A DNA stretch of 34,246 nucleotides from an uncultured Faecalicoccus sp. (GTDB lineage: Bacteria > Bacillota_I > Bacilli_A > Erysipelotrichales > Erysipelotrichaceae). Numbering within the stretch: position 1 is the first letter of the stretch; the number at the start of each line of letters is the position of its first letter. This document shows positions 21,314 through 24,299 of this stretch, piece by piece. The stretch is taken from assembly GCF_944325745.1 (NCBI RefSeq), contig NZ_CALVBG010000010.1, positions 1 to 34,246 on the forward strand. The letters run 5' to 3'. A program made the position numbers and the translations under genes. The notes under the pieces are model-generated. The model made no database searches. It was not told the origin of the DNA and was given only the letters and a program-made list of their open reading frames with translations.

Positions 21314-23389
21314 TCAATCTTCTTTTTGATGGGCCTGCACAATGCGGCTGGCCTGTGGTTCCGGTACCGGATCATAACGATCCATTTCCATCGTATAACG
21401 TCCAAGCCCTTGGGTCATCGAACGAAGTTCAATAGAATAGCGAGCCATTTCTGCCATTGGCACTTGGGCTTCAATGATCTGATCTCCATCTTCTGGTGTC
21501 ATGCCCATGATAGCTCCTCGGCGCTTGTTCAGATCCCCGATCACAGCCCCCGTATATTCATCAGGAACCGTAACAACGATATTCATGATCGGTTCTAACA
21601 AGATTGGATGGCACTTGGTCATCGCATCTTTGAAAGCCAGGCGCGCTGCTAATTTAAAGGCCATTTCACTCGAGTCGACATCATGGTATTTTCCATCGGT
21701 CAACGTAGTTTTGATATTGACCATCTTATAGCCTGCCAACGTTCCTTCGTTGCAGCATTCGCGCAATCCATTTTCCACAGCCGGGAAGTATTGTTTAGGA
21801 ACAGCCCCGCCAAAGACGCGCTCATCAAATTCCATTTCTTCCACACCCGGATTCGGTTCAAATTCCACAAAGACATGTCCAAACTGTCCATGACCGCCGG
21901 ACTGTTTCTTATGACGCCCTTCGCCCATCGCTTTCTTTGTGATCGTTTCGCGATAGGTTACCTTTGGATCTTGAAGAATGACTTCTGCTTTGTATTTGTT
22001 CTTCAGCTTATTGAGCATCACATCCAGATGCTGGTCACCGACACCGTAAATGACAGTTTCTTTCGTTTCGGCATTATTGACAACTTTAAATGTCGGATCT
22101 TCTTCCACAAGACGAGCCAAACCATTAGAAAGCTTATCTTCATCATTTTTCGATTTCGGGAAGATGGCTTGTCCAAACATGGGTTCATCAAATTGAATTG
22201 GATCAGCAATCAACAATTTACCTTTTTCACACAAAGTATCATTGGTCTTTGTGTTCTGCAGCTTGACCAAAGCTCCGATATCACCGGTAAATAATTTTCC
22301 GGCCGCCGTCTGGTGCTTTCCTTTGATCGTATAGATCGAACTGATCTTTTCTGGTTTCCCATTATTAGCATTGACCAAAACCGAATCTGAGCTCAAAACA
22401 CCGCTTAACACTTTTAAATAGGAGATGCGTCCCACAAACGGGTCTACGATGGTTTTAAAGACTTGAGCCGTTAATGTTTCTGTTTCGGAAGTCAAAAGTT
22501 CAACCTTCACACCATTTGGTGTTGTAGCCGTATACATTCCTTTTTCTGAATATGTCGGGAAGTAAGAGATGATCAGATCCATCAAACGTTGGATTCCAAT
22601 GGATTGAATGGCACTTCCCGAGAATACCGGACAGATTTCCCCATTGCGGACACCGATACGGACGCCCTTTGTCAGTTCGGCATCGGTAAATTCTTCACCA
22701 GAGAAGAATTTTTCCATCAATTCATCATCCCCCATGGCCACAGCTTCGGCAATCTGATCTTTATACATGCTGACTTCATCGATCATATCATCCGGAACCG
22801 GTTGTGCCATTTCTGAATTGGCTTTCGGACCTTTATAGTACCAGGCTTTGTTTTTGATGATATTGACAGAACCTACAACTTCGCCGTTTTCAACGATCGG
22901 TACTTCAAACGGAATGATCGATTTTCCGAACTCTTCGTGAAGCTGACCATAAGCATCCGCAAAGTTCGTATTCTCTTCGTCCAATTTATTGATGAAGAAG
23001 ATCGTCGGTTTCTTTGCTTCTACGGCTTGTTTAAACGCTAGTTTTGTTCCGGATTCTAACACATCTTTAGCATTGACAACGATCAGACAGCTGTCGCCTA
23101 CCGCAAAACCGGCTTGTTTTTCTCCTACGAAATCTAGATATCCAGGCGTATCGATAAAGTTGATCTTGCAATCTTCCCATTCAATCGGAACGATTGATGT
23201 ATAAACGGAGATCCCGCGTTTGATTTCTTCGGCATCAAAGTCGATCATGCTGCTGCCATCGGAAGTTTTCCCAAAACGATCGGTCGCTTTCGTATAATAG
23301 AGCATTGCTTCTAAAACACTGGTTTTTCCGGCTCCACTGTGCCCGATCACACTGACATTACGGACTTCAGAACTTAAATAATCTCTCAT
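21314..23389 (-). CDS. EF-G-like translational GTPase (EF-G-2 / FusA2 type)
   Basis: A 691-residue protein with the five-domain EF-G plan. G1 is GHSGAGKT (16-23), G3 is DTPG (80-83) and G4 is NKLD (134-137). Domain IV has KKQSGGHGQFGHV, and the C-terminus has GAVIGDLNKRRGAI. It is not the housekeeping EF-G: that protein starts AHVDAGKT and has DTPGH, where the His activates GTP hydrolysis. Here the sequence is DTPGY, the state I also recall for EF-G-2 paralogues such as that of Thermus. The family is ribosome-associated, but its role is unsettled (stress, recycling or slow translocation are possible). It follows an ankyrin-repeat gene by 12 nt with SD AGGAGG, behind a leader ORF and terminator. 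Confidence 0.9.
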   Translation of the reverse strand: MRDYLSSEVRNVSVIGHSGAGKTSVLEAMLYYTKATDRFGKTSDGSSMIDFDAEEIKRGISVYTSIVPIEWEDCKINFIDTPGYLDFVGEKQAGFAVGDSCLIVVNAKDVLESGTKLAFKQAVEAKKPTIFFINKLDEENTNFADAYGQLHEEFGKSIIPFEVPIVENGEVVGSVNIIKNKAWYYKGPKANSEMAQPVPDDMIDEVSMYKDQIAEAVAMGDDELMEKFFSGEEFTDAELTKGVRIGVRNGEICPVFSGSAIQSIGIQRLMDLIISYFPTYSEKGMYTATTPNGVKVELLTSETETLTAQVFKTIVDPFVGRISYLKVLSGVLSSDSVLVNANNGKPEKISSIYTIKGKHQTAAGKLFTGDIGALVKLQNTKTNDTLCEKGKLLIADPIQFDEPMFGQAIFPKSKNDEDKLSNGLARLVEEDPTFKVVNNAETKETVIYGVGDQHLDVMLNKLKNKYKAEVILQDPKVTYRETITKKAMGEGRHKKQSGGHGQFGHVFVEFEPNPGVEEMEFDERVFGGAVPKQYFPAVENGLRECCNEGTLAGYKMVNIKTTLTDGKYHDVDSSEMAFKLAARLAFKDAMTKCHPILLEPIMNIVVTVPDEYTGAVIGDLNKRRGAIMGMTPEDGDQIIEAQVPMAEMARYSIELRSMTQGLGRYTMEMDRYDPVPEPQASRIVQAHQKED

Positions 23390-23401: not shown

Positions 23402-24073
23402 CTACTTCAAGATCGGCTCCAGTTGAGCACGGCAATGTTCGCGAACATAATCTAACGCAACATTTCCTTGTTTATCTTGCATATCTTTGTCGGCTCCATA
23501 AGACAATAATTTTTCAACAAGGCTTGGATAGCCGCCATAAGCAGCACGCATCAGAGCCGTACATCCGTTATTATCAAATAAATTCACGTTGGCGTTTCTT
23601 TCCAACAAAATCGAGATCGTATCTCGTTTGAATGCGATACAAGCTTCCATTAAAGCGGTACGTCCAACTTCATCCTGTGCATTGATGTCAGCACCGGCAT
23701 CTAAGAGAACTTGCACACAACGATCTTGTCCCAATAAAGCTGCACGCATCAAGGCCGTACGCCCGCGGTCATCTTTCGCATTGACATCGGCACCCGCATC
23801 TAATAAAGCTTTACAAATGGTTTTGTTCCCTTTTTTGGCAGCACCCATCAAGGCCGTTTTTCCTTTATTATCGACTAGATTTACATCGGCCCCATTATCG
23901 ATGAGCACTTGGACAACATCTTTACGGTCGCGTTTCGCGGCACGCATCAAGGCAGTTCTTCCATCTCCATTTTGATAGTTCACATCAGCTCCGGCTTTGA
24001 TCTGGCCGCATACCATGGGGAAATCCCCGTTCGCACATGCGTCCCAGAATACCTTGTTGAAATTTTGATCCAT
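23402..24073 (-). CDS. Ankyrin-repeat protein
   Basis: This 223-residue protein is built almost wholly of 33-residue ankyrin repeats. The TALM tetrad recurs at 40, 73, 106, 139 and 172, exactly 33 residues apart, with GADVN-type turns between. A capping repeat precedes the first (NGDFPMVCGQIKAGADVN) and another follows the last (QGNVALDYVREHC). It has no signal peptide, membrane segment or extra domain, so it is a soluble protein-binding scaffold. The partner is unknown. It is co-transcribed with the EF-G-like GTPase 12 nt downstream, which makes the GTPase or the ribosome a reasonable guess. The SD AGAGGAGG lies 8 nt before the ATG. Confidence 0.9.
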   Translation of the reverse strand: MDQNFNKVFWDACANGDFPMVCGQIKAGADVNYQNGDGRTALMRAAKRDRKDVVQVLIDNGADVNLVDNKGKTALMGAAKKGNKTICKALLDAGADVNAKDDRGRTALMRAALLGQDRCVQVLLDAGADINAQDEVGRTALMEACIAFKRDTISILLERNANVNLFDNNGCTALMRAAYGGYPSLVEKLLSYGADKDMQDKQGNVALDYVREHCRAQLEPILK

Positions 24074-24090
24074 TTTAATTCCTCCTCTTT

Positions 24091-24102: not shown

Positions 24103-24141
24103 AAAAAACAGAAAAACTGGAATGAACCTAACATCCCAGCT
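24103..24141 (-). terminator. Intrinsic terminator inside the leader of the ankyrin/EF-G-like operon
   Basis: An 8-bp core stem CTGGGATG/CATTCCAG (24139-24132 with 24124-24117, one G-U pair) extends by two more weak pairs and has a 7-nt loop. It is followed by TTTTTCTGTTTTTT on the minus strand. It starts two bases after the stop codon of a 20-codon ORF and ends 30 nt before the ankyrin ATG, so transcripts must pass it to reach the operon. Confidence 0.8.
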
Positions 24142-24204
24142 TTATCCTCTATAAAAGAAGTCCATGACTTGATTGACATTTTTTACATCTTGAACTGTTG
24201 TCAT
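24142..24204 (-). CDS. 20-residue leader peptide ORF
   Basis: The ORF runs ATG (24204) to TAA (24144-24142) and encodes MTTVQDVKNVNQVMDFFYRG. A purine-rich SD (AGAGGAAGTGG) is placed 4-5 nt upstream. It lies between a good promoter and an intrinsic terminator, the layout of transcription-attenuation leader peptides. There is no run of one amino acid, so classical amino-acid attenuation is unlikely. A ribosome at the stop codon would cover the 5' arm of the terminator. It could instead be an independent micropeptide gene with its own terminator. Confidence 0.55.
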   Translation of the reverse strand: MTTVQDVKNVNQVMDFFYRG

Positions 24205-24230
24205 CGTCACCACTTCCTCTTCTTGTCTGC

Positions 24231-24258
24231 ATTATAACAAAGCATGATCAAAAGACAA
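24231..24258 (-). promoter_or_regulatory. SigA-type promoter for the leader ORF and ankyrin/EF-G-like operon
   Basis: TTGTCT (24258-24253), 16-nt spacer and consensus TATAAT (24236-24231) on the minus strand. Transcription would start near 24224, about 20 nt before the leader ATG. Confidence 0.7.
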
Positions 24259-24299
24259 ATCAAGAGCCAATTTAGACAAATTATGAACCAAACAAGACA

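Follow-up and report, generated by a model that had tools for sequence, protein, structure and literature searches.

A candidate peptide-independent, ribosome-mediated transcription attenuator ahead of an ankyrin/EF-G-like operon in Erysipelotrichaceae

Does the translation of a short open reading frame (ORF) decide whether RNA polymerase reaches the two genes behind it, and if so, what does the ribosome report there? This question is raised by a locus of an uncultured Faecalicoccus sp., found in a contig stretch of 34,246 nucleotides that we refer to as the window. The operon, which encodes an ankyrin-repeat protein and an EF-G-like protein, lies with all of its leader signals on the minus strand (Table 1). 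The initial annotation had placed here a promoter, a 20-codon ORF with a Shine-Dalgarno sequence and a terminator two bases after the TAA, and we could confirm these coordinates. More precisely, the 5' arm of the terminator begins within the leader stop codon, while position 24139, two bases past the TAA, marks the beginning of its GC core. In the open-licence literature, we found no description of the ankyrin/EF-G operon or of its leader.

Table 1. Features of the leader and operon in the window.
Feature	Position	Strand	Basis or remark
Two direct repeats, 21 bp each, abutting and overlapping the -35 box	24253..24294	-	Candidate regulator site
Promoter, TTGTCT-16-TATAAT	24231..24258; -35 TTGTCT 24258-24253, spacer 16 nt, -10 TATAAT 24236-24231	-	-10 box found at the same place in relatives
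P1 5' arm AGAGGAAGU, overlapping the leader Shine-Dalgarno	24212..24220	-	Fold, covariation, locus-specific complementarity
Leader ORF MTTVQDVKNVNQVMDFFYRG, 20 codons + TAA	24142..24204; ATG 24204-24202, TAA 24144-24142	-	Frame and stop position kept in the family
P1 3' arm ACUUCUUUU, within the ORF end	24153..24161	-	Fold and covariation
Intrinsic terminator hairpin AAAGCTGGGATG-7-CATTCCAGTTTT, then TCTGTTTTTT	24113..24143; U-tract on to ~24103	-	Terminators at the same place in relatives
Ankyrin gene Shine-Dalgarno AAAGAGGAGG	24081..24090	-	Predicted mostly unpaired
Ankyrin-repeat protein, 223 aa, ATG at 24073	23402..24073	-	Translation; homologues in the family
EF-G paralogue (NF009381), DTPGY for DTPGH	21314..23389	-	Motif comparison

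Within the window, promoter-like sites (20 found, 17.7 expected) and terminator-like sites (9 found, 8.2 expected) are no more numerous than chance predicts, so that the case for the leader rests on conservation and comparison. The leader terminator nevertheless has the longest stem among those listed, and the RNA up to the terminator is much more stable than its shuffled counterparts (z -3.6). A scan of the window against Rfam gave no match to a known leader or riboswitch at gathering score, and the leader peptide has no match in Pfam.

We then compared the locus with its relatives. Proteins 97-100% identical to the ankyrin protein occur in Faecalicoccus acidiformans, F. pleomorphus and one uncultured Faecalicoccus, and at E <= 1e-40 the protein is found in 170 of the 196 Erysipelotrichaceae genomes; among the matches listed by an order-wide search, all come from this family. 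In all, 130 family loci were taken as the comparison set, in which the EF-G gene follows the ankyrin gene at 128 loci. Nearly all of them share the same design, that is a promoter, an ORF of 17-47 codons with Shine-Dalgarno sequence and ATG, an intrinsic terminator and the ankyrin gene, with a terminator detected in 125 of the 130 (terminators and ORFs were called with custom scripts). The leader ORF and/or the terminator seem to be lost or decayed at five loci (L133, L070, L060, L063 and L068), three of which belong to one genus, and the operon thus seems able to do without the leader device.

The distance between the terminator and the ankyrin ATG has a median of 38 nt across the family. Since this leaves little room for a promoter, the operon would either be read through the terminator or be poorly expressed. 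In the window, a weak TACAAT box lies at 24096-24091, some 18 nt away from the ATG of the ankyrin gene. The initial annotation had warned that this box might bypass the terminator, but it has no counterpart in the Faecalicoccus relatives (L004 and L005). A separate downstream promoter for the ankyrin gene was rejected on account of the tight spacing and of this lack of conservation.

The most regular trait of the leader is the place where its ORF ends. With the leader ATG chosen on Shine-Dalgarno strength alone, blind to the end of the ORF, 100 of 120 loci had their first stop codon between -12 and +15 nt from the point where the terminator 5' arm begins; the remaining two frames gave 6 and 13. 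Shuffled ORFs gave 20.5 +/- 3.8 such loci, with a maximum of 31 in 500 rounds. The stop still sits at the stem in 71 of 86 non-redundant leaders (3 and 8 in the other frames), a set of leaders less than 75% alike in which kinship is removed only in part. The commonest stop position overlaps the first pair of the stem, and a second peak, in another frame, lies 10 nt further in. Also, 85% of the leaders stop at -1 to +15 (median -1) compared to 20% of the long ordinary ORFs that lie ahead of a terminator at these loci (median -15), a contrast somewhat inflated by the wider window scanned for these controls. In its design, the sequence is therefore one in which a short leader ORF sits between promoter and terminator ahead of structural genes, and the geometry is such that the position of a ribosome on this ORF would alter the formation of the terminator. 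The leader-ORF attenuator put forward by the initial annotation for this operon is thus supported by an open frame and a stop geometry kept across the family, as is its proposal that a ribosome at the ORF end would cover the terminator 5' arm.

The same cannot be said of the peptide. Although peptide length stays within 17-47 residues at nearly all loci, the sequences fail to align family-wide: alignment in relatives, suggested earlier as a check, recovered the open frame and the stop position and returned no conserved peptide residues, which are thus the wrong yardstick for this leader. A conserved-peptide reading was discarded, as the alignment gave only a VF-x-GV-like stretch that recurs patchily in part of the family and that may have a role in the loci that carry it. 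In two pairs of close relatives (L014/L015 and L081/L085), frame-shifting indels produce different C-termini and the stop is still found at the stem. Because the peptide is unconserved and relatives swap frames while keeping the stop in place, what matters seems to be the position of the ribosome rather than the peptide. In close pairs, the nonsynonymous share is 0.65 compared to 0.77 expected without selection, a mild constraint that might stem from base pairing alone; indels between close pairs are of length 3 in 17 of 58 cases within the ORF and in 10 of 95 outside it, loose pairs being uninformative. The window peptide has no run of regulatory codons of the trp/his type and composition is spread over residues across the family, so that the absence of a single-amino-acid run noted at the outset holds for both. 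Leader stop codons are mixed (66 TAA, 28 TGA and 24 TAG). As a separate observation, the last codon before TAA or TAG is TTT in many loci, a possible site of polymerase pausing.

The minimum-energy fold of the leader revealed a second helix, which we called P1 and which the initial annotation had missed, in which the ribosome-binding site (RBS) of the leader pairs with the end of the ORF. Across 91 non-redundant loci, pairing between the RBS and the ORF end of the same locus has a mean energy of -15.3 kcal/mol, compared to -11.5 +/- 0.31 once the ORF ends are exchanged among loci. An alignment of 18 sequences from the window's clade has 13 doubly changed, still-paired cells over both helices, compared to 5.1 +/- 2.5 in shuffles; the covariation score drops at every slid register, and RNAalifold recovered the same two helices unprompted. 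Consistent with these data, the leader RBS is predicted to be 30% unpaired, a value that rises to 43% once the ORFs are shuffled (Wilcoxon p = 1.4e-10); this RBS is also more occluded than that of the ankyrin gene in 80 of 91 loci. P1 is clear in the window's clade; outside it, support varies by locus and several loci have none. P1 and the terminator coexist in the minimum-energy fold, and the consensus fold contains just these two helices, so neither fold holds a competing antiterminator hairpin of the trp/his type. The initial annotation had seen no clear antiterminator either and had counted this as a caveat. While the observation stands, the caveat falls away, since the ribosome would take this part and no separate antiterminator would be needed.

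From what the comparison shows, namely the leader frame, the stop geometry, helix P1, the cre boxes and the His-to-Tyr change described below, we infer a switch, its direction and its signal. We consider it probable that the leader is a peptide-independent, ribosome-mediated transcription attenuator that switches the ankyrin/EF-G-like operon: on reaching the leader end, a ribosome would block the terminator. Transcription would begin upstream of the short ORF, at the promoter predicted from the sequence. If no ribosome loads, P1 would lock the RBS, the terminator would form and the ankyrin and EF-G-like genes would stay off; this unloaded state would be self-locking, since the RBS is captured once the ORF end has been transcribed. 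A loaded ribosome would run to the stop codon on the terminator 5' arm, block the hairpin for as long as it stays there and let RNA polymerase read through, whereas a ribosome still upstream on the leader would permit termination. When a stop codon occupies the A site, the ribosome covers about ten bases downstream of it; as these belong to the terminator 5' arm, a ribosome at the leader end would mean read-through. Read-through would hence rise with prompt arrival and slow departure of the ribosome, the latter being expected, for instance, from defects in termination, recycling or translocation.

The promoter of the leader carries signals of its own. At 51 of 118 loci, compared to 0.8 expected, the leader promoter region contains a CcpA cre box that departs from the consensus at no more than one position, and the -10 hexamer often lies within this box. 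In these many relatives, the device would stand behind a CcpA box and its transcription would rise upon carbon limitation. The box is absent from the window's own genus, where 21-bp direct repeats are found at the -35 box instead. Judged from predicted sites, the operon may belong to the CcpA regulon in the relatives that carry the box. Such repeats are seen in the Faecalicoccus-Holdemanella clade, where cre is missing, and a block of the repeat region (TTGGnnCTTGATTTG) is common to the Faecalicoccus, Faecalitalea and Holdemanella relatives; the role of cre may have passed to a different regulator in the Faecalicoccus-Holdemanella clade. Among EF-G2-like genes elsewhere in the class, in other families (L234-L253), a cre box with at most one mismatch was found in 10 of 20 cases compared to 0.07 expected, which suggests an old CcpA control of EF-G2 in the class. 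Inspection of these 20 genes found no leader ORF-terminator arrangement of the present kind, and the ankyrin gene is absent too. Since cre occurs there in genes that have no attenuator, carbon control seems the older of the two, and we suppose that the attenuator was added in the ankyrin-bearing family.

The product of the second gene is 38% identical to canonical EF-G, whose gene fusA adjoins tuf on another contig. It is therefore a second EF-G of the EF-G2 type, present beside canonical fusA and with the catalytic His replaced by Tyr: the motif reads DTPGY instead of DTPGH at every locus where it is readable (66, some genomes being counted twice). In translational GTPases, loss of the catalytic His predicts poor GTP hydrolysis. 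The paralogue is probably GTPase-poor, like the EF-G2 of Bacteroides, and probably acts with a reduced need for GTP hydrolysis, while the ankyrin protein may be its partner or inhibitor.

As to what such a switch would sense, two signals fit: slow departure of the ribosome from the stop (trouble with termination, recycling or EF-G) or a slow RNA polymerase; the rate of initiation may be a further candidate. With a slow polymerase, the leader would sense coupling in the manner of pyrE/pyrBI: the ribosome would always reach the end while polymerase speed varies, and a polymerase slowed in the U-run by a shortage of nucleotides would let the ribosome catch up and block the terminator, raising output upon energy or UTP shortage. 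The unconserved peptide and the stop at the stem agree with this, and the cre boxes point towards starvation. TTTT also occurs in the ORF end at 83 of 91 loci compared to 48 +/- 3.6 in shuffles (24156-24153 in the window; L102, L110 and L115 are further examples). However, the U-run doubles as the P1 3' arm in the window's clade, which would account for it, and TTNTTT, the NusG pause motif of the B. subtilis type, is only mildly enriched (32 compared to 23 +/- 4). We see a coupling sensor as possible, if somewhat short of an even chance. With slow departure, the leader would be a peptide-blind sensor of ribosome dwell at the stop: slow EF-G-dependent translocation or recycling would make the terminator fail and bring on an EF-G paralogue independent of GTP hydrolysis, as a family-wide feedback on EF-G capacity stacked on carbon control. 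This we propose tentatively, as a reading less likely than not.

Explanations that give the ribosome or the ORF another role fare less well. That the leader is an arrest attenuator of the msrDL/erm type, in which a particular nascent chain stalls with a drug or other ligand, appears improbable: msrDL uses the same physical device of a stop-codon ribosome blocking a terminator (PMC10314930) and some members of the family share the VF-x-GV-like stretch, but no motif runs through the whole family, frame-shifted C-termini are tolerated, and stops are mixed whereas msrDL needs its residues and prefers UAA (PMC10314930). A structured RNA, either a riboswitch or a protein-binding leader with an incidental ORF, would agree with the covarying helices and, given the lack of an Rfam match, could be an undescribed family. 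We find it harder still to credit, as the ATG frame alone is open and ends at the stem (in 100 loci, with 6 and 13 for the other frames) and no core is conserved in the central part of the ORF. Least credible of all is a free-standing micropeptide gene that ends in a terminator of its own, with the ankyrin operon using another promoter. While promoter, Shine-Dalgarno, ORF and terminator do make up a complete small gene at nearly every locus, the peptide is unconserved, ordinary genes in the same loci stop further from the stem, only some 38 nt separate the terminator from the ankyrin ATG, and the TACAAT box is unconserved.

The leader attenuators known so far respond to an amino acid, a drug or a nucleotide; a family-wide attenuator without a conserved peptide would read the state of the ribosome or of coupling. 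The enterobacterial pyrE and pyrBI leaders are translated independently of their sequence up to a stop at or in the terminator, and ribosome-polymerase coupling sets their read-through. They are the nearest to the present leader in their blindness to the peptide, and they differ from this leader by their output and by the RBS-hiding helix found here. In msrDL, the leader of the streptococcal mefA/msrD operon, a macrolide-stalled ribosome at the stop codon obstructs the Rho-independent terminator before msrD (PMC10314930). Both leaders set a stop-codon ribosome against a terminator ahead of a translation-factor gene. However, msrDL encodes a 6-residue, residue-dependent macrolide arrest peptide, whereas the present ORFs are 17-47 codons long and unconserved and imply no drug; the present leader also has an RBS hidden by a helix and, in many relatives, a cre-controlled promoter. 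With no arrest peptide conserved, it falls outside the msrDL kind. The vmlR and tlrB leaders of Bacillus subtilis also place genes that act on the ribosome under the control of an upstream ORF (PMC9226507, PMC6851288). That of vmlR answers general translation defects as well, and it uses anti-antiterminator and antiterminator hairpins (PMC9226507), in contrast to the present leader, where the ribosome itself would block the terminator.

For the output, the closest parallel is fusA2 of Bacteroides, whose product EF-G2 is described as enabling GTP-independent translation, is induced more than 200-fold by carbon limitation and is needed for gut colonisation (PMC6989115, PMC10294740). Both systems pair a second, divergent EF-G with carbon-linked control, here predicted from cre boxes, in gut bacteria. 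They differ in that BT4338 activates fusA2 at its promoter, whereas the present operon combines CcpA-type boxes in relatives with an attenuator and an ankyrin partner. Faecalicoccus, Holdemanella, Amedibacillus and Longicatena offer species for direct study. The parallel is suggestive: by analogy, it suggests that gut Firmicutes and Bacteroides reached starvation-controlled alternative translocases separately.
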